From Chryseobacterium gleum (lineage in GTDB: Bacteria > Bacteroidota > Bacteroidia > Flavobacteriales_F > PHOS-HE28), in the NCBI GenBank assembly GCA_945872795.1, contig CAMCAZ010000034.1, positions 1 to 40,507 on the forward strand: a stretch of 40,507 nt of DNA, in the 5' to 3' direction. The notes under the pieces were generated by a model, which saw only the letters and a list, made by a program, of their open reading frames with translations, made no database searches and was not told the origin of the DNA. This document shows positions 15,261 to 27,815 of the stretch, piece after piece (position 1 is the stretch's first letter; every line of letters begins with the position of its first letter). Position numbers and translations under genes: made by a program.

Positions 15261-15492
15261 TGCGTTCCAACGATGCCCGATGGCCACGCACTTCGGTCCG
15301 CCATCGGCCTGGTCGGAGCCTGGCCGCGCCTTGGTTCACTGTGGTGTGCAGTCCTCGGTCGGTGTGTTCACTGCCGGTCCGGACCCCGGCCGATCGGCCT
15401 CATTGCACGATCGTCGCGACGGGTGCAGGTGGGGACGATGTGCAGACCGGGTTGCGCTCGTTCAACGCGAACGCTGATCCGTGTGCGCTACC

Positions 15493-15954
15493 TCAATCCT
15501 CCGCCACCCGCGGCATCTCGATATCGTCCGTAACGATATAGCTGCCGGGATAGATCACTTTCATGTCACGCAGCAGGCGTTCCGCTTCCAACCGGGTGCG
15601 CAGGTCGCCCACGCGGAGCCTGAAATTGGGCGCCAGCCAGCTGAGGTAGGCCGGTGTGTCCGGGTATTTCTGGAGGAAGGTGCGTTTGGTCTCCTCCGCC
15701 GTTCTCCGGTCGCCCAGGAAGACCTGCACCCGGTAGCCCTTGCGGATGTGCTTCACCTCCACGAACTGTTCCATGGTGCCATCGATGCCGGGCGCCACTC
15801 GGAGGGTCACGTCCCCGGGAACGACCTGGGCCACGCTGGGCGTGTCCACGGGGGTCTCGGTGTGGGGTTGGAAGGTGCGCACCGGTGGTGGTTCCTGTGC
15901 CTGGACCTTAGGCCAGATCACAGCGAGGACGAGGGAGAGGAGCAGGGTACGCAT
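15493..15954 (-). CDS. SPOR domain periplasmic protein
   Basis: 153 residues. MRTLLLSLVLAVIWPKVQAQ is a signal peptide ending in the typical AQAQ-like cleavage site. After a Pro/Thr-rich spacer (20-45), the C-terminal region (about 70-145) reads KGYRVQVFLGDRRTAEETKRTF and later FRLRVGDLRTRLEAERLLRDM. This is the two-strand, two-helix pattern of the SPOR domain, which binds denuded peptidoglycan. The protein is therefore periplasmic and may localise to septa. It is divergent from actA, and the shared 202-bp gap carries its own TACTTTTG box and the palindromic operator. SPOR genes at this spot between infB and ACIII are common in the phylum, as far as I recall. Confidence 0.82.
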   Translation of the reverse strand: MRTLLLSLVLAVIWPKVQAQEPPPVRTFQPHTETPVDTPSVAQVVPGDVTLRVAPGIDGTMEQFVEVKHIRKGYRVQVFLGDRRTAEETKRTFLQKYPDTPAYLSWLAPNFRLRVGDLRTRLEAERLLRDMKVIYPGSYIVTDDIEMPRVAED

Positions 15955-15968
15955 GGTGAAGTGCGGTC

Positions 15969-15976
15969 CAAAAGTA
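15969..15976 (-). promoter_or_regulatory. -7 promoter box for SPOR gene
   Basis: On the minus strand TACTTTTG fits TAnnTTTG exactly and lies 14 bases before the ATG at 15954. Confidence 0.5.
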
Positions 15977-16032
15977 TGCCGTGCTGCACCGCCGGACAGC
16001 CAGGGTCGGGACCTGGATCGAGCATCAAATAG

Positions 16033-16049
16033 TTTAGACCGATTCTAAA
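16033..16049. promoter_or_regulatory. Irr/ICE-box-like palindromic operator
   Basis: TTTAGACCGATTCTAAA is an inverted repeat (TTTAGA, 5 bases, TCTAAA). It matches 13 of the 14 fixed positions of the ICE box TTTAGAA-N3-TTCTAAA, known as the target of the Fur-family iron/haem regulator Irr in alphaproteobacteria. It sits almost midway between the -7 boxes of the SPOR gene (56 bases away) and actA (57 bases away). The motif match is direct; the regulator in this organism is unknown. Confidence 0.5.
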
Positions 16050-16106
16050 TAGTGACATCCACGTGGCAAGGAAGCGACCGTTCTGTCCCACGATCGGATC
16101 CCCGTG

Positions 16107-16114
16107 TATTTTTG
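16107..16114 (+). promoter_or_regulatory. -7 promoter box for the act-cox operon
   Basis: TATTTTTG fits TAnnTTTG exactly, 42 bases before the actA ATG at 16157. A -33 TTG is not obvious (TTC near 16080), which would fit a promoter needing activation. Confidence 0.55.
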
Positions 16115-16156
16115 CGGCCGGTCCATAGGGCCATTGTCCCTCCAAAACTGCTCGGA

Positions 16157-17488
16157 ATGCCGCTTGTAGCAAGGATTTCAGATCGTTCCACCGGGCTTCT
16201 CTACGCAACCCTCGCGCTCTTCCTTTCCCTATCCTTCACGGCTGTGCATGCGCAGCCTGCGGACGCGGCGTTGTATGCCACCGGTGAGAAGCTCTTCAAA
16301 GGGAACTGTGGTTCCTGCCACAAGCCCGACAAGGACCTGACGGGTCCCGCACTGAAGGGTGCACGTGCCCGCTGGGAAGGCAAGGGCGACATCTATGCCT
16401 GGATCAAGAACAGCACGGACTACCTGAAGACCGGTAATCCTTACGCCACCGAGCTTTTCGCCAAGTGGAACAAGAGCGTGATGACCGCTCAGGCCGTCAC
16501 CAACGAGGAGGTCGACGCGATCCTGTACTACGCTGATAACTACACGCCGCCTGCTCCGAAGGCTGGTGTGGTGGCCGAAGCTCCTCCAACGGGCCCGAAC
16601 GACGCCGGTCCGGCATGGCTTTGGTTGGTGGTGCTCGCACTGCTCTTCCTGGTCGTGGGCCTCAGCCTCAGCGGGGTGAAGAAAGGCCTGGCCAACGCTG
16701 TACAGGAGACGGAGGGCAAGCAGCCGCTGCCGGACCGCAGCTTCGGGGAGAGCATCCGCGAATGGGCCTGGAACAACAAGGCCATGGCCGGCATCATCGG
16801 CCTGTTCTTCGTGGTCTTCATCGTCTTGAAACTGTGGGACGCCGCCTGGGTCGTGGGTGTCTACGGTGGTGATGAGGTGGAGCACTACAAGCCCGAACAG
16901 CCCATCCTGTTCAACCACACGTTGCACGCCGGAAAGGTGGAGGCCGGTAACCTGGCCATCAACTGCCAGTACTGCCACAGCAGCGCGGAGAAGAGCAAAC
17001 ATGCCGGCATCCCGAGCACCAACATCTGCATGAACTGCCATCAGGCTGTGGAGGAGGGCCGCTCGCCGGAAGGCACCAAGGAGATCGCCAAGATCTACGC
17101 GGCCATCGGCTGGGATCCCGCCACCAAGAGCTACACGGGCAAGGAGGAGCCGGTGAAGTGGGTGAAGGTGCACAACCTGCCCGACCACGCCTACTTCAAC
17201 CACGCCCAGCACGTGGCCGTGGGTAAACTGGAGTGCCAGGAGTGCCATGGTCCCATCGATGAGAAGATGGACGTGGCCGAGCAGTGGGCGCCGCTCACCA
17301 TGGGCTGGTGCATCGACTGCCACAACACCAAGGATGTGAAGATGGCCGGCAACGGTTATTACGACGAGACCATGAAGCGCCTGCACGACACCAAGTTGGG
17401 TGAGCGGGAGCTGAAGCAGTACTTGGAGGACGATAAGATCACCGTGAAGGAGCTTGGCGGCTGGGAATGCGCCAAGTGCCACTACTAA
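16157..17488 (+). CDS. actA: alternative complex III subunit A, multihaem cytochrome (ActA)
   Basis: 443 residues with six CxxCH motifs (C51, C270, C291, C360, C385, C438). A signal peptide (about 1-32) precedes a monohaem cytochrome c domain (about 35-130). A Pro-rich spacer leads to two membrane helices (about 153-172 and 209-226), and then a pentahaem domain to the C-terminus. With two helices between them, both haem regions face the periplasm. The pentahaem part is the ActA electron wire of the quinol:cytochrome c oxidoreductase ACIII. The start at 16157 gives the signal peptide; the extension to 16052 would cross the promoter. It is the first gene of an eight-gene operon. The N-terminal haem domain is additional to the pentahaem unit, and I cannot tell how common it is. 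Confidence 0.9.
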   Translation: MPLVARISDRSTGLLYATLALFLSLSFTAVHAQPADAALYATGEKLFKGNCGSCHKPDKDLTGPALKGARARWEGKGDIYAWIKNSTDYLKTGNPYATELFAKWNKSVMTAQAVTNEEVDAILYYADNYTPPAPKAGVVAEAPPTGPNDAGPAWLWLVVLALLFLVVGLSLSGVKKGLANAVQETEGKQPLPDRSFGESIREWAWNNKAMAGIIGLFFVVFIVLKLWDAAWVVGVYGGDEVEHYKPEQPILFNHTLHAGKVEAGNLAINCQYCHSSAEKSKHAGIPSTNICMNCHQAVEEGRSPEGTKEIAKIYAAIGWDPATKSYTGKEEPVKWVKVHNLPDHAYFNHAQHVAVGKLECQECHGPIDEKMDVAEQWAPLTMGWCIDCHNTKDVKMAGNGYYDETMKRLHDTKLGERELKQYLEDDKITVKELGGWECAKCHY

Positions 17489-17508
17489 GACCGAACACAG
17501 CGCCGCGC

Positions 17509-20751
<3,243 letters not shown>

Positions 20752-20769: not shown

Positions 20770-22158
20770 ATGCATTCAGAAGCAGCGATCCGACAACCGC
20801 TCATCCTGGGTCACAAGACCTACCACGACATCACCAATGATATCGTGGGTCCGATCGAGAACAAGGCCTCCCGCGGGTGGTACATCCTGTTCACCATCGC
20901 CGCCATCGTTGCCGCCTACGGCACGGGCTGCATCCTGTACCTGATCAGCAAAGGGATCGGTGTCTGGGGATTGAACAAGACGGTGGACTGGGCCTGGGAC
21001 ATCACCAACTTCGTGTGGTGGGTGGGTATCGGCCACGCCGGCACCCTGATCAGCGCCGTGCTCCTGCTGTTCCGGCAGAAGTGGCGGATGGCCATCAACC
21101 GATCGGCGGAGGCGATGACCATCTTCGCGGTGATCATGGCGGCCACCTTCCCCGGCATCCACATGGGCCGGATCTGGATGAGCTACTGGGTGCTTCCCCT
21201 GCCGAACCAGTTCGGTTCGTTGTGGGTGAACTTCAACAGCCCACTGCTGTGGGACGTGTTCGCCATCAGCACCTACTTCAGTGTGTCGCTGGTGTTCTGG
21301 TACATCGGCCTGATCCCCGACTTCGCTACCATCCGCGACCGGGTGACCAAGCCCGGCATGAAGAAGGTCTACGGCATCCTCAGCTTCGGCTGGACGGGCA
21401 ACGCCAAGGCCTGGACGCGCTTTGAGGAGGTGAGCCTGGTGCTCGCCGGCATCGCCACCCCGCTGGTGTTCTCGGTACACTCCGTGGTGAGCTTTGACTT
21501 CGCCACCTCGGTGATCCCCGGCTGGCACACCACCATCTTCCCGCCCTACTTCGTCAGCGGTGCCGTGTTCAGCGGTTTCGCCATGGTGCAGACCCTGTTG
21601 CTGATCATGCGCAAGGTGATGCACCTGGAGGCCTACATCACCCGGAAGCACATCGAGTACATGAACATCGTGATCATTGTCACGGGTTCCATCGTGGGTG
21701 TAGCCTACATCACCGAGCTCTTCATCAGTTGGTACAGCGGTGTGGAGTACGAGAGCTACGCCTTCATCAACCGCGCTACCGGTCCCTACTGGTGGGCCTA
21801 CTGGGCGATGATGACCTGCAACGTGGTGAGCCCGCAGGTGTTCTGGTTCAAGAAGCTGCGCACGCACCTGGGCTTCACCTTCTTCATGAGCATCATCGTG
21901 AACATCGGCATGTGGTTCGAGCGCTTCGTGATCATCGTCACCAGCCTGCACCGCGACTACCTGCCCAGCAGCTGGAACATGTTCCACCCCACCTGGGTCG
22001 ATGTGGGCGTGTTCCTGGGCACCATCGGCATCTTCTCCACCCTGTACCTGCTCTTCGCCCGCTTCTTCCCGGTGCTGGCACTGAACGAGGTGAAGTCCAT
22101 CCTGAAGGGCAGCGGCGAGAGCTATAAGAAGGAGGCCGCACAACATCATCACCATTGA
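20770..22158 (+). CDS. actC: alternative complex III subunit C, NrfD-like membrane protein (ActC)
   Basis: A 462-residue integral membrane protein of the NrfD/PsrC family with about ten hydrophobic helices. The N-terminus LGHKTYHDITNDIVGPIE is typical of ActC, and the first helix bundle has WWVGIGHAGTLISAVLLL. ActC holds the menaquinol-oxidising site of ACIII beneath the ActB Fe-S domain. The C-terminus is a soluble tail ending in HHHH. It starts 18 bases after actB and is followed within 5 bases by actD. Confidence is high from family signature and operon position. Confidence 0.94.
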   Translation: MHSEAAIRQPLILGHKTYHDITNDIVGPIENKASRGWYILFTIAAIVAAYGTGCILYLISKGIGVWGLNKTVDWAWDITNFVWWVGIGHAGTLISAVLLLFRQKWRMAINRSAEAMTIFAVIMAATFPGIHMGRIWMSYWVLPLPNQFGSLWVNFNSPLLWDVFAISTYFSVSLVFWYIGLIPDFATIRDRVTKPGMKKVYGILSFGWTGNAKAWTRFEEVSLVLAGIATPLVFSVHSVVSFDFATSVIPGWHTTIFPPYFVSGAVFSGFAMVQTLLLIMRKVMHLEAYITRKHIEYMNIVIIVTGSIVGVAYITELFISWYSGVEYESYAFINRATGPYWWAYWAMMTCNVVSPQVFWFKKLRTHLGFTFFMSIIVNIGMWFERFVIIVTSLHRDYLPSSWNMFHPTWVDVGVFLGTIGIFSTLYLLFARFFPVLALNEVKSILKGSGESYKKEAAQHHHH

Positions 22159-22163
22159 TCGAC

Positions 22164-22697
22164 ATGTCGAACACGGTCATATACGCGGTCTACGAGGACC
22201 CCGAGCAGTTGAAGGACGGCGCCCGCAAGCTGGTGTCCAACGGGATCAAGGTGAAGGATGTGTACTCGCCCTTTCCGGTCCATGGTCTGGATCCGATCAT
22301 CGGCATCAAGCGCACGCGCCTGGCCATTGTGGCCTTCATGTTCGGCATCTTCGGCACGAGCCTGGCCCTGCTGGGGATCTGGTACTTCAACATCTTCGAC
22401 TGGCCGATGAACATCGGCGGCAAGCCGAGCCAGGCCTTCTACAAGAACCTGCCCGCCTTCATCCCCGTGACCTTCGAGTTCACGGTGCTCTGTGCCGCGC
22501 ACGGCATGGCCATCACCTACCTGATCCGCAACAAGACGCTGCCCGGCATGCCGGCCCGCAACCCGGATCCCCGCACCACGGACGACAAATTCATCATCGA
22601 GGTGCGCAGCGCCGACAACCATGGGCACAGCGTGGAGTCCATCGGCAGCCTGCTCCGCACCACCCCGGTGTTCGAGATCAACGAACGCCAGTACTGA
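22164..22697 (+). CDS. actD: alternative complex III subunit D (ActD, DUF3341)
   Basis: 177 residues. The N-terminal domain has the DUF3341 opening IYAVYEDPEQLKDGARKL and VKDVYSPFPVHGLD. Two membrane helices follow (about 55-77 and 95-118), joined by FDWPMNIGGKPSQAFYKNLPAFIPVTFE. This is the ActD membrane subunit of ACIII, which packs against ActC and has no cofactors. The ATG at 22164 is preferred over the TTG at 22155 that overlaps actC. It is followed by actE after 2 bases. Confidence 0.93.
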   Translation: MSNTVIYAVYEDPEQLKDGARKLVSNGIKVKDVYSPFPVHGLDPIIGIKRTRLAIVAFMFGIFGTSLALLGIWYFNIFDWPMNIGGKPSQAFYKNLPAFIPVTFEFTVLCAAHGMAITYLIRNKTLPGMPARNPDPRTTDDKFIIEVRSADNHGHSVESIGSLLRTTPVFEINERQY

Positions 22698-22699
22698 TC

Positions 22700-23386
22700 A
22701 TGAGCAAGAGCAAGCAAACATCCGGACTTGTCCTCGGCGTCCTTCTGGCCACCGTGCTCCTCATGGCATCCTGCGGTGGCGACCCCAACAGCCCCGGCGT
22801 GGAGTACATGCCTGACATGTACCGCAGTCCGGCCATGGAGGCCTACGTGGACTACGGCCAGGACCCGTATCATTTCGGTGAGGACGTGGCCAAGGAGCAG
22901 CGTCTGCGCCAGAGTGCGCGCAAGCCTGTGGACGGCACCATCGCCTTCAGCAAGGACCCGTCCAAGGCACAGTTCAACATGCCCTATCCCTTCCCTGGAA
23001 CCCCCGAGGGCTACGAGGCGGCCGGCCTGCAACTGAAGAGCCCGATCGCGATGACCGAGGCCACCGTTGAGCAGGGCAAGGTGATCTACGCCAAGTTCTG
23101 CCAGCACTGCCACGGTGAAAAGGGCGAGGGCGATGGCGGTGTGGTGAAGAACGGCAACTATCCGCAGCCACCGAGCTACACGGGCGCACTGAAGGACCTG
23201 CCCGAAGGCAAGATCTTCCATAGCCTGGTGTACGGCAAGAACATCGCCATGGGCTCCCACGCCTCGCAGCTCAACAAGGAAGAGCGCTGGCTGGTGACGC
23301 ACTACGTGAAGTACCTCCAGGCCGGTGGCGTCATGCCCGGCCAGGCTCCGGTGCAGGTGGCCGACAGCACCACTGCAGCACTTTGA
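22700..23386 (+). CDS. actE: alternative complex III subunit E, monohaem lipoprotein (ActE)
   Basis: 228 residues. The signal peptide ends in the lipobox LMASC with C25 as the lipidated cysteine, so the protein is anchored in a membrane on the periplasmic side. A cytochrome c domain with CQHCH (C134, C137, H138) follows the segment VEQGKVIYAKF, and M207 or M211-region methionines could supply the sixth ligand. ActE is the monohaem lipoprotein of ACIII and probably relays electrons from ActA to the oxidase. It is tightly packed between actD and actF. Confidence 0.93.
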   Translation: MSKSKQTSGLVLGVLLATVLLMASCGGDPNSPGVEYMPDMYRSPAMEAYVDYGQDPYHFGEDVAKEQRLRQSARKPVDGTIAFSKDPSKAQFNMPYPFPGTPEGYEAAGLQLKSPIAMTEATVEQGKVIYAKFCQHCHGEKGEGDGGVVKNGNYPQPPSYTGALKDLPEGKIFHSLVYGKNIAMGSHASQLNKEERWLVTHYVKYLQAGGVMPGQAPVQVADSTTAAL

Positions 23387-23413: not shown

Positions 23414-24679
23414 ATGAACTTCTCCTTCAGCAAACGGGCCCGCACATTGACCATGACCCTGATCGTGGTCGGCCTCGCGGCCACCCTCTTCGGGATCATG
23501 GGCGACCATACCGACCACCACCAGCGCACTTGGGCGAACCTGTTGGTGAACGGCTTCTTCTTCCTGGGCATCTCCCTCGGGGCCCTGTTCTTCTTTGCCC
23601 TGCAGAACGCCACTGAGACGGGCTGGACCGTGCTGGTGAAGCGCATCTTTGAAGGCATCATGTCCTTCGTGCCCATCGGCGCGATCGTGATGATCGTGGT
23701 GCTCGCAGCGGGTTCTGCCCATGTGCACCACCTCTACCATTGGATGGACAGCACGCTCTATCACCCTTACATGGTGGGCGAGGGCGCTTCGGCCACGTAC
23801 ATGGACGAAGCGGTGCAGGGTTCCGTGGCCAATCCCAACTACGACAAGCTGATCGCGGACAAGAAGGCCTTCCTGAACCAGCCCTTCTTCTGGCTGCGTT
23901 CCCTGTTGTACCTCTCCGTGTTCTTCCTCTTCGGTCGCTGGTTCCGCCAGCAGAGCCTGCAGATGGACAAGGAGACCGGTGACACGCTGGTGAAGCGCCA
24001 CCTGCTCAACTACCGCCGCAGTGCCCTGTTCCTGGTCTTCTTTGCGGTGTTCAGCAGCACCCTGGCCTGGGACTGGTTGATGAGCATCGATACGCACTGG
24101 TTCAGCACCCTTTACGGCTGGTACGCGTTCAGCGGCATGTGGGTGAGCGCCATGGTCACCGCGGTGGTCATCGCGCTGTACCTGAAGCGCAAGGGCCTGC
24201 TTCCCCAGGTGAACAACAGCCACATCCACGACATGGGCAAGTGGGTGTTCGCCATCAGCTTCCTGTGGAGCTACCTCTACTTCAGCCAGTTCATGCTCAT
24301 CTGGTACAGCAACATCCCGGAGGAGGTGACCTACTTCCAACAGCGGATCGATCACCACCCGATGCTGCTGTGGGGCACCTTCTTCATCAACTTCGCCGTG
24401 CCTATGGTGATGCTGATGAGCCGCGACGCCAAGCGCAATCCGCGCTTCCTGATCGGGGTGGGTGCGGTTATCTTTGTTGGCCACTGGCTGGATGTGAACA
24501 TGATGGTGATGCCGGGCGCCCTCGGGCACGATTTCCACGGCATCGGCATGTTGGAAGTGGGCATGTTCCTGGCCTTCCTCGGGGTGTTCATCCGTACCGT
24601 GCTCACCGCATTGACCAAGGCACCGCTGACGCCGGTGAACCACCCGTACCTGGACGAAAGTGTCCATCACCAGATCTGA
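23414..24679 (+). CDS. actF: alternative complex III subunit F, membrane protein (ActF)
   Basis: A 421-residue polytopic membrane protein with about ten helices, similar in plan to ActC (NrfD-like) but lacking its quinol-site signature. Recognisable ActF features are the WANLLVNGFFFLGISLGALFF helix near 40-60, WDWLMSIDTHWFSTLYGWY near 220 and HPMLLWGTFFINFAVP near 315. In ACIII it is the second large membrane subunit and has been proposed to contribute to proton movement. It starts 27 bases after actE and precedes coxB by 57 bases, so it belongs to the same operon. Confidence 0.93.
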   Translation: MNFSFSKRARTLTMTLIVVGLAATLFGIMGDHTDHHQRTWANLLVNGFFFLGISLGALFFFALQNATETGWTVLVKRIFEGIMSFVPIGAIVMIVVLAAGSAHVHHLYHWMDSTLYHPYMVGEGASATYMDEAVQGSVANPNYDKLIADKKAFLNQPFFWLRSLLYLSVFFLFGRWFRQQSLQMDKETGDTLVKRHLLNYRRSALFLVFFAVFSSTLAWDWLMSIDTHWFSTLYGWYAFSGMWVSAMVTAVVIALYLKRKGLLPQVNNSHIHDMGKWVFAISFLWSYLYFSQFMLIWYSNIPEEVTYFQQRIDHHPMLLWGTFFINFAVPMVMLMSRDAKRNPRFLIGVGAVIFVGHWLDVNMMVMPGALGHDFHGIGMLEVGMFLAFLGVFIRTVLTALTKAPLTPVNHPYLDESVHHQI

Positions 24680-24736: not shown

Positions 24737-25999
24737 ATGATGAAGTTGTTGATCCTGCTCGTTGTGGTACTGGGGGTGATGGCCATCGCCCAGCTGGTCC
24801 GGGTCTATGAGCTTACCTCCCGTCTGCGTGGAAAGCGCGAGGAGGACATCTCCCCGGCCGATAACCGCATGAACGCCCGCCTGATGTGGGCCTTCCTGAT
24901 CGCCTACTTCGGCTTCTTCCTGTGGTTGGTGGTGGCCTACGGCGACAAGATGCTGCCTGTGGCGGCCAGCGAGCACGGTGCCGAGACCGATTGGCTGATG
25001 GACTTCAATTGGATCATCCTGGCGATCCCCTTTGTGCTTACCAATGTGCTTCTGTTCTGGTTCGCGGGCAAGTACATCCACAGCAAGGAGCGTCGCGCCT
25101 ACTGGCAGCCGCACAACAACAAGCTGGAGCTGATCTGGACCGTGATCCCCGCCGGTGTCCTGGCCGTGATCATCATCTACGGTCTCACCACCTGGAACGA
25201 GATCACCGCCCCTGCCTCCCCGGATGCCGTGGTGGTGGAGCTCTATGCCAAGCAGTTCGATTGGACGGCCCGTTACCCCGGTGAGGATGGTGTGCTCGGT
25301 GCCACGGACTTCCGCCTGATCAATGGCACGAACCCGCTGGGCATCGTCACCCCCGAGAGCATCGCCCAGCGCATGGCCGAGATCGACGCCTCGATCCACG
25401 AAGCGGACAGTGTGCTGGCCAACAGCATCCTCGCGGATACCAAGCGCGGTGAGATGGAGGATCAGGTGGAGCGTCTCCGCCGCACCCAGGCCCGCATCGT
25501 CAATCTGCGCACCCTGATGGACCTGGACATCAAGAAGAAGGGAACGGCCAGCCAGTACCTGTACGGTGCCGATGACATCGTGACCAAGGAGTTCCTGCTG
25601 CCGATCCGCCAGGAGGCCAAGCTGTTGATCCGCAGCCGCGACGTGATCCACAGCGCCTACATCCCGCACCTGCGCAGCCAGATGAACGCCGTGCCGGGCA
25701 TGACCACCACGATGAAAATGGTGCCTACGATCACCACGGACAGCATGCGCACCGTCATAAAGAATGATGCCTTCGAGTTCATCCTTCTGTGCAACAAGAT
25801 CTGCGGTGCATCGCACTACAACATGCAGATGCCGTTGACGGTCACCAGCGCTGCCGACTATGACGCGTGGATGGCCGAGCAGATGAAGAAACCTTTCCAG
25901 GCACCACCCGCCGCCGAGGTGCCTGTAACGCCGGTCGTAGCGGATACCACGGCAGTGCCCGTTACCGCCACCGCACAAGCGTCAGTGATCACGAATTGA
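24737..25999 (+). CDS. coxB: cytochrome c oxidase subunit II (CoxB)
   Basis: 420 residues, longer than typical subunit II. An N-terminal hydrophobic helix and two further transmembrane helices (about 50-70 and 90-112) anchor the protein. The C-terminal cupredoxin domain holds the CuA site CNKICGASHYNM (C352, C356, H360, M363); a lysine stands where many homologues have glutamate. Between strands there is a charged, predicted helical insertion of about 90 residues (195-285) rich in Glu/Arg. Such an insertion is, to my knowledge, usual for Bacteroidota CoxB. The C-terminal tail is Pro/Ala/Val-rich. It receives electrons from ACIII or cytochrome c and passes them to CoxA. No c-type haem domain is fused. 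Confidence 0.93.
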   Translation: MMKLLILLVVVLGVMAIAQLVRVYELTSRLRGKREEDISPADNRMNARLMWAFLIAYFGFFLWLVVAYGDKMLPVAASEHGAETDWLMDFNWIILAIPFVLTNVLLFWFAGKYIHSKERRAYWQPHNNKLELIWTVIPAGVLAVIIIYGLTTWNEITAPASPDAVVVELYAKQFDWTARYPGEDGVLGATDFRLINGTNPLGIVTPESIAQRMAEIDASIHEADSVLANSILADTKRGEMEDQVERLRRTQARIVNLRTLMDLDIKKKGTASQYLYGADDIVTKEFLLPIRQEAKLLIRSRDVIHSAYIPHLRSQMNAVPGMTTTMKMVPTITTDSMRTVIKNDAFEFILLCNKICGASHYNMQMPLTVTSAADYDAWMAEQMKKPFQAPPAAEVPVTPVVADTTAVPVTATAQASVITN

Positions 26000-26012: not shown

Positions 26013-26021
26013 CTGTTGACC

Positions 26022-27815
26022 ATGGGTGCCACCACTGCACATTCCGCCGCACACGCGCACGACGCGCACCACCACCACGAGGAGAGCTTCATTTCGAAGT
26101 ACGTCTTCTCGCATGATCACAAGATGATCGGGAAGCAGTTCCTGGTCACGGCGATCTTCATGGCCTGGGTGGCGGTGATCATGTCCCTGATCTTCCGTCT
26201 TCAGCTGGCATGGCCGGGTGAAGGTTTCGCGTTCACGAACTTCTTCCTGGGTGACAAATGGGCCCCGGGTGGGGTGCTCAGTCCCGACATGTACTTGGCG
26301 TTGGTCACCATCCACGGTACCATCATGGTGTTCTTTGTGCTGACGGGTGGTCTGTCAGGCACCTTCGCCAACCTGCTCATCCCCTTGCAGATCGGCGCCC
26401 GTGACATGGCTTCGGGCTTCATCAACATGCTCAGCTATTGGTTCTTCCTGGTGAGCAGCGTGGTGATGTTGGCTTCGCTTTTCGTGGAAGGAGGTCCGGC
26501 TTCCGCAGGTTGGACGATCTATCCGCCGCTCAGCGCACTGCCCCAGACCATCCCAGGTTCTGGTACTGGCATGACCCTCTGGCTGGTGAGCATGACCCTG
26601 TTCATCGCCAGCTCCCTGCTTGGTGGACTGAACTACGTGGCGACCATCCTGAACCTTCGTACGAAAGGGATGAAGATGACCCGCTTGCCCCTGACCATCT
26701 GGGCGATCCTGATCACCGCGGTACTGGGCGTATTGAGCTTCCCGGTGCTGTTGAGCGCTGCTCTGCTGTTGCTGATGGACCGCTCCATGGGCACGAGCTT
26801 CTATCTGAGCGATATCCACGTGGCCGGTGAGGCCCTGGATCACATGGGTGGCAGCCCCGTCCTCTTCCAGCACTTGTTCTGGTTCCTGGGTCACCCGGAA
26901 GTGTACATCGTGCTCCTTCCCGCCTTGGGTATCACGTCGGAGATCATCTCCACCAATTCCCGCAAGCCCATCTTCGGATATCGGGCCATGATCGGTTCCA
27001 TCCTGGCGATCGGCTTCCTGAGCTTCATCGTGTGGGGGCACCACATGTTCATCACGGGCATGAACCCCTTCCTGGGCAGTGTCTTCGTGGCCACCACCTT
27101 GCTGATCGCCATCCCGAGCGCCGTGAAGGTGTTCAACTACATCACCACGCTGTGGCGCGGCAACATCATCTTCACGCCGGCCATGCTCTTCAGCATTGGT
27201 CTGGTGGCGACCTTCATCGCGGGTGGTCTGACCGGTATCATTCTGGCGGATAGTGCCTTGGACATCAACGTGCACGACACCTATTTCGTAGTGGCCCACT
27301 TCCACATCGTGATGGGTATGAGCGCCATCTTCGGGATGTTCGCGGGTGTTTATCACTGGTTCCCCAAGATGTACGGCAGGATGATGAACACCAAGCTGGG
27401 TTATGCCCACTTCTGGGTCACCTTCATCTGCGCCTTCGGGGTCTTCTTCCCGATGCACTTCATCGGCCTGGCCGGAGCTCCCCGTCGCTACTACAGCTAC
27501 AGCGAGTTCCCCATGTTCGATTCGGTCATGGACCTCAACGTGCTGGTGACCGTGTTCGCGATCATCGGTGCCCTGGCCCAGATCATCTTCACCTACAACT
27601 TCTTCTACAGCATGAAGCGTGGCCCGAAGGCCGTGCAGAACCCGTGGAAGAGCAACACCCTGGAGTGGACCACGCCCGTGGAGCACATCCACGGCAACTG
27701 GCCTGGTCCGCTGCCCGTGGTGCACCGTTGGCCCTATGACTATAGCAAGCCTGGCAAGACCGAGGATTGGGTGAGCCAGATCACTCCGCTGGAGCACGAC
27801 GAGGAGGATCATTGA
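26022..27815 (+). CDS. coxA: cytochrome c oxidase subunit I (CoxA)
   Basis: A 597-residue haem-copper oxidase catalytic subunit with about twelve transmembrane helices. The N-terminus is His-rich (HAHDAHHHH). The helix VI motif GHPEVYIVLLPALGI has the CuB histidine, the glutamate of A1-type oxidases and the tyrosine of the cross-linked His-Tyr pair. The CuB histidine pair appears in WGHHMF, and the haem ligands lie in HFHIVMG. It reduces oxygen to water and pumps protons. It ends the act-cox operon; coxC, coxD, haem A synthase and Sco genes are not in this window. The ATG at 26022 is supported by AAGGAG upstream. Confidence 0.95.
   Translation: MGATTAHSAAHAHDAHHHHEESFISKYVFSHDHKMIGKQFLVTAIFMAWVAVIMSLIFRLQLAWPGEGFAFTNFFLGDKWAPGGVLSPDMYLALVTIHGTIMVFFVLTGGLSGTFANLLIPLQIGARDMASGFINMLSYWFFLVSSVVMLASLFVEGGPASAGWTIYPPLSALPQTIPGSGTGMTLWLVSMTLFIASSLLGGLNYVATILNLRTKGMKMTRLPLTIWAILITAVLGVLSFPVLLSAALLLLMDRSMGTSFYLSDIHVAGEALDHMGGSPVLFQHLFWFLGHPEVYIVLLPALGITSEIISTNSRKPIFGYRAMIGSILAIGFLSFIVWGHHMFITGMNPFLGSVFVATTLLIAIPSAVKVFNYITTLWRGNIIFTPAMLFSIGLVATFIAGGLTGIILADSALDINVHDTYFVVAHFHIVMGMSAIFGMFAGVYHWFPKMYGRMMNTKLGYAHFWVTFICAFGVFFPMHFIGLAGAPRRYYSYSEFPMFDSVMDLNVLVTVFAIIGALAQIIFTYNFFYSMKRGPKAVQNPWKSNTLEWTTPVEHIHGNWPGPLPVVHRWPYDYSKPGKTEDWVSQITPLEHDEEDH

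Follow-up and report, generated by a model that had tools for sequence, protein, structure and literature searches.

The window, i.e., the whole stretch of 40,507 nucleotides analysed here (contig CAMCAZ010000034.1 of the Chryseobacterium gleum assembly GCA_945872795.1), carries a plus-strand cluster encoding an alternative complex III (ACIII) and a cytochrome oxidase. The head of the cluster is actA (16157..17488), the multihaem cytochrome c subunit, in whose translation we read six CxxCH motifs. It is followed by actB (17467..20751), which codes for an Fe-S/molybdopterin-like subunit, actC (20770..22158) for an NrfD-like membrane subunit, actD (22155..22697; PF11821), actE (22700..23386) for a monohaem cytochrome c, and a probable actF (23414..24679), named from its position only, as it has no Pfam match at 1e-5. 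Next come the genes of cytochrome c oxidase subunit II (24737..25999) and subunit I (26016..27815). A divergent gene on the minus strand (15493..15954) encodes a SPOR-domain protein that scores just below the Pfam cut-off. Between the latter and actA, at 16033..16049, lies the palindromic 17-mer TTTAGACCGATTCTAAA, to which no strand can be given. The -7 box of Bacteroidota has the consensus TAnnTTTG. One such box is found on the act side (TATTTTTG; 16107..16114, plus strand), 57 bp after the operator, and a -7-like box is found on the side of the SPOR gene (CAAAAGTA, or TACTTTTG on the minus strand; 15969..15976), 56 bp from it. A scan of positions 15400-16800 with Rfam gave no match at the gathering score.

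The ICE box, TTTAGAA-N3-TTCTAAA, is the site bound by the haem-responsive regulator Irr in alphaproteobacteria. The preliminary description of this DNA had noticed the palindrome and proposed that it is such a box, by which iron or haem would control ACIII. The 17-mer and the ICE consensus are indeed equal at 13 of 14 positions, and the site is far above chance, since the operator is the sole match in the window to TTTAGAACGATTCTAAA at ≤3 mismatches, where 0.01 are expected. It is also not a motif of random density across the genome: when the whole assembly (3.32 Mb in 102 contigs) was scanned with TTTAGA-N5-TCTAAA at ≤1 mismatch, we found the pattern in two places, the operator and a site upstream of sufA, and obtained no match with the control pattern. 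The second site, TTTAGACTGATTCTAAA, is located 13 bp 5' of the start codon of sufA, in a cluster of Fe-S assembly genes ordered sufA, B, C, D, S.

The same few genes account for all exact sites in the genus. There are 54 of them in 35 genomes, and none with the reversed-pattern control. We inspected every one, and all could be placed: 26 at sufA, 4 at sufC, 16 at actA (in one case the contig stops short of ActA), and 8 at the gene of an orphan response regulator (RR) by rnz. Three genomes (G004, G005, and G032) are devoid of an exact site, and the first of these has four sites at two mismatches.

To cover a broader range of taxa, we assembled a non-redundant set of sequences upstream of ActA, using 78 act loci, mostly of uncultured Flavobacteriales, and the loci of our sampled genomes. 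We excluded cases where the alignment started beyond residue 45 of ActA or where the last 80 bases duplicated another sequence. The resulting 72 upstream regions (up to 300 bp) contain 27 exact, 23 one-mismatch, and 8 two-mismatch sites, against 0.01, 0.29, and 3.9 expected from shuffles of the same regions, so half of the two-mismatch class may be due to chance. The site is kept at 0-1 mismatch in all 28 non-redundant upstreams of close relatives (ActA identity ≥55%). It is lacking in 14 of 73 upstreams, mostly Bacteroidales-like, Chlorobiota, and Taibaiella. A less biased sample, with one genome per family for 23 other families of the class, shows the act site at 0-1 mismatch in 16 of the 20 families that have ActA with ActB (G049, G050, and G056 were omitted because no ActB adjoins their ActA). 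We did not find it in families G041, G048, and G055, and in G054 only a degraded version is left, TTTAGAATCAATACAAA, located by eye 58 bp ahead of a -7 box. At suf, 17 of the 22 testable families have a site at 0-1 mismatch in the 300 bp preceding sufA or sufB, another three have one at two mismatches, and two have none; G042 was not counted because its fragment of sufB has no sequence upstream. The consensus in the class is TTTAGAATnATTCTAAA. In some act loci, including those of Neptunitalea, Gilvibacter, and Aureitalea, one arm has changed and the site is asymmetric, as in TTTAGAATnnTTATAAA; other Flavobacteriales show TTTAGAATnnTTTTAAA. The spacing classes (see below) are unchanged at these loci, which include L178, L179, L194, and L198.

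We then measured the distance between the end of each act site and the -7 box, searched downstream as TAnnTT[TC]G. Among the 59 upstreams with sites at ≤2 mismatches, 48 show a distance of 56-58 bp and 8 a distance of 45-48 bp, the last 3 having no -7 box at 40-70 bp from the site. Within 110 bp after these sites there are just three additional -7 boxes. Families, when counted once each (n = 16), are distributed between 56-57 bp (6), 45-46 bp (7), and 43 bp (1), with no box in 2. The two spacing classes are thus about one helical turn apart, and the helical phase of the upstream site relative to the promoter is fixed, as it is for phased activator sites. In the 28 upstreams with ActA identity ≥55%, the mean frequency of the majority base is 0.985 in the arms of the palindrome, 0.52 in its five central bases, 0.59 in the 57-bp spacer, and 0.40 in the 40 bp to the left. 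A spacing that stays constant while the sequence drifts is the pattern expected of an activator touching RNA polymerase. This fixed-phase, activator-like placement before ACIII, found in most act-bearing families sampled, is what is new in our results.

The geometry on the other side of the operator is loose, as is shown by -7-like boxes at 34-35, 53-56, or 78-80 bp, or at odd distances, and by the lack of any such box within 110 bp in 26 of the 59 loci. The operator had been described as midway between the two divergent promoters. This is accurate in the window (57 versus 56 bp) but is not a conserved feature, because only the act side is fixed in relatives. The sites at suf and RR are placed differently relative to the -7 box. 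A site at ≤2 mismatches is present in 39 of 42 sufA upstreams; in 33 of these 39, its first base follows the last one of a -7 box by 5-14 bp. Similarly, the RR gene has a site in 43 of 48 upstreams, and in 32 of the 43 it lies 5-7 bp after the -7 box. At both genes the box should overlap the expected start of transcription, as predicted from the -7 box, which points to repression there.

The motif corresponds to the core of a published Fur box. In PMC5609570, the Fur box of Riemerella anatipestifer is ATTTAGAATTATTCTAAAT, in place of which the abstract gives the consensus of E. coli. The 17-mer of the window shares 14 of the 16 fixed positions of the core, and TTTAGAATnATTCTAAA is common to the two within the same phylum. 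The experimental basis of the Riemerella box includes electrophoretic mobility shift assays (EMSA) in which purified Fur bound four promoter fragments, including that of sprT, whose box is poor (PMC5609570). It also includes ATTTAGAATTATCCTAAAT at rhuB, again with EMSA (PMC10986502), and a haemophore gene whose expression rises when fur or the Fur box is mutated (PMC11967795, whose relevant passages do not spell out the box). Known targets there include HmuY/HmuR and TonB receptors, and the suf genes are iron-responsive. The likeness has limits, because the printed table of PMC5609570 comprises iron-uptake and other genes but not ACIII, and the passages on Riemerella describe no phased upstream site. 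Given the agreement between the motifs, we consider it very probable that the iron regulator Fur binds the palindrome, which is most likely a Fur box rather than an Irr box. The proposal of an operator of the Fur-superfamily type thus looks sound.

The candidate reader is widespread, since a Fur-family protein was found in all 58 genomes, and the match is strong in 56 of them. Only a weaker paralogue was seen in the two others, the window's genome and G003. Some genomes carry a shorter divergent paralogue, and 31 of the 35 genomes of the genus have a single Fur-family match. The strong copy adjoins purA in 29 of 30 loci, and purA is cut by a contig edge in both the window's genome and G003. 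The gap in the window's genome is therefore best explained as an assembly gap, and we set aside a real absence of Fur. For one Fur from the genus, the best Fur model gives 80.8 bits and the PerR model 70.2, and the two Irr models, with cut-offs of 170 and 150, give 32.8 and 34.1; all these scores are under the strict cut-offs. The best matches of this protein in the PDB are Fur proteins, followed by PerR. None of the 30 Fur loci has a box better than two mismatches.

The third recurrent target, RR, is an orphan response regulator of the NarL/LuxR type encoded beside rnz (L215:1495-2172, minus strand; orthologues in L212-L257), with a receiver domain just below the Pfam cut-off. In the genus, each of the 30 fetched genes has a box with 0-3 mismatches that starts 22-30 bp ahead of the coding sequence, the copy in the window's genome having three mismatches. 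Orthologues occur in at least 14 of the 23 other families, and 12 of 14 have the box at ≤2 mismatches. All 45 orthologues in the alignment keep three cysteines, of which C106 lies at the receiver's end and C126 and C150 are in the linker, and none of the 3 aligned paralogues has them together; the orthologues were chosen by their similarity to the copy of the genus, and include a second copy from G039 and omit a partial one from G005. There is no close RR match among the matches listed for G001, G007, G017, and G030, nor among those listed for 9 of the 23 other families, 7 of which show rnz without RR. G017, a genome rated 100% complete, has rnz without RR and still has an exact act box and a sufC box at two mismatches. 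Likewise, of the 9 families with no close RR match listed, 5 still have a suf box at 0-1 mismatch. Since suf and act boxes persist in genomes lacking it, we rejected RR as the sole regulator and do not regard it as the main reader of the site. It is probably a target of Fur and possibly a co-regulator.

Published expression data bear on the effect of iron. In Elizabethkingia, rich iron raises the levels of a quinol:cytochrome c oxidoreductase cluster 4.1-8.6-fold (PMC7221216). We read this cluster as ACIII on the basis of its gene names, the paper itself labelling it bc1. In Riemerella, RAYM_00020, named "cytochrome c oxidoreductase quinone-binding subunit 1" and thus ACIII-like, drops in poor iron, and does so further in the absence of fur; it is missing from the Fur-box table (PMC5609570). 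Both trends would agree with an activation of act by iron-loaded Fur. The data on suf are less favourable: the authors of the Elizabethkingia study report increased expression of Fe-S synthesis genes when iron is abundant (PMC7221216), which is the opposite of the predicted repression of suf by iron-loaded Fur. In the Riemerella data, suf genes rise in low iron even in the fur mutant (SufB, 1.87 in the wild type and 1.85 in the mutant), as do HmuY and HmuR (6.71 and 7.69; 7.89 and 8.44), so that this RNA-seq does not isolate the control by Fur (PMC5609570). Our literature search returned no paper on the transcriptional control of ACIII by Fur and none joining ACIII, Fur, and iron limitation.

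Fur acts as a direct activator in other phyla, and CRP is a phased upstream activator. The act site resembles these cases in being upstream of the promoter and in having spacings about one helical turn apart. We propose that iron-loaded Fur would touch RNA polymerase from a position some 60-70 bp upstream and so switch on act-cox when iron is plentiful. At sufA and the RR gene, where the box lies over the predicted start, the same protein would repress. Upon iron shortage, the cell would thus build less of an iron-rich respiratory complex and more of the Fe-S assembly machinery. As a whole, the explanation in which a Fur box is read by the purA-linked Fur, activating act-cox and repressing sufA and RR, seems to us probable from the comparison of sequences. 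The link between iron and ACIII that had been put forward is well supported by this comparison, and suggests that iron supply directly sets the cellular amount of ACIII. If true, Fur would be a direct switch of a central respiratory complex, and iron would be saved without a small RNA. The phased site also leads to clear predictions for mutants in promoter spacing, and the motif can be used to find Fur targets across Bacteroidota genomes.

Other proteins could read the operator. The RR might do so itself, as an autoregulated protein sensing the Fe-S or redox state by its three invariant cysteines. The box before all 30 genes of the genus and before 12 of 14 in other families would fit this idea, as would the restriction of the cysteine triad to orthologues. 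Yet G017 and several families with no close RR match listed keep boxes, and the likeness to the published Fur box would have to be a coincidence, which makes this alternative improbable. An operator common to Fur and RR, with RR sensing Fe-S clusters, replacing IscR/SufR in this branch of Bacteroidota, and co-setting the levels of Fe-S assembly and ACIII, is rather doubtful. One could also take the site for a true ICE box, read by a homologue of Irr (or PerR) responding to haem or peroxide. Irr, PerR, and Fur boxes share their geometry, the palindrome is nearly identical to that of alphaproteobacteria (hence the 13 of 14 positions), and act and suf, like the targets of Irr, are linked to haem and Fe-S proteins. 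Nevertheless, there is no Irr-like protein here by model score, the Irr models being far behind Fur (PerR is close behind it), and no sign of haem sensing. Most genomes of the genus have one Fur-family match, and the motif is the core of the Riemerella Fur box. Irr, the reader originally suggested, is thus not retained, and we regard an Irr- or PerR-type reader as quite improbable. Finally, a regulon made of suf, the main target of Rrf2 proteins, and of an Fe-S respiratory complex would suit a regulator like IscR or SufR. We rejected it because the window's genome has no Rrf2 match. Such a match is lacking in 13 of the 58 genomes, this one included, and 11 of the 13 still have a suf box at 0-1 mismatch, a phyletic pattern that comes close to refuting the idea and leaves it the faintest of chances.

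A different objection accepts Fur as the reader and questions its role at act, where it could be a repressor, have an architectural function, or leave the site mostly unbound. The induction of ACIII by iron would then be indirect, through the supply of haem or Fe-S clusters or through a small RNA. Many respiratory genes of Elizabethkingia are iron-induced (PMC7221216), and the fall of the ACIII-like subunit of Riemerella in low iron takes place even without fur (PMC5609570), as one would expect in such a case. On the other hand, a good distance separates the act box from the -7 box downstream of it, and the two spacings differ by about one helical turn, as befits an activator, and at suf and RR the box is instead on the predicted start. 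We see the indirect scenario as unlikely, though deserving serious weight, and direct activation of act-cox by iron-loaded Fur remains our preferred reading.

The other genes preceded by the box give some idea of the extent of the putative regulon. In five genomes of the genus, searched at ≤2 mismatches to TTTAGAATNATTCTAAA, we found 12 sites (7 suf, 3 act, 1 RR, and 1 methyltransferase gene) and no control match. None of them precedes an iron-uptake gene, which is odd for a main Fur and leaves two options: either Fur has a narrow role in the genus, or its boxes at iron-uptake genes are weaker. In other families the motif was seen at iron-uptake genes (feoA, a TonB receptor, HmuY-like). Twenty genomes outside the genus, hand-picked and many of them chosen for already having boxes, contain 46 sites at ≤1 mismatch versus 2 for the control. 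The genes concerned include feoA, a TonB-receptor gene, nqrA, a 2-oxoacid:ferredoxin oxidoreductase, genes of HmuY-like proteins (one above and one below the Pfam cut-off), and genes of DUF4856 lipoproteins. Two of these lipoproteins had been considered imelysins, an identity that we dropped since Pfam assigns them to DUF4856. A box near hemA (L348) is a weak assignment because a nearer divergent gene shares the region. The loci with boxes before feoA, HmuY-like, DUF4856, hemA, nqrA, and oxidoreductase genes are L373, L381, L066, L374, L376, L348, L369, and L372. G047 has an exact box upstream of a haem oxygenase gene (L005), which we did not count as support because this genome also yields one control match. 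Judging from the nature of these genes, the set outside the genus looks like an iron regulon. A Fur-like box was also observed upstream of a methyltransferase gene that is apparently alike in two families (L421:1501 and L361:1501), a likeness judged by eye from the translations, with Pfam run on L421 only.
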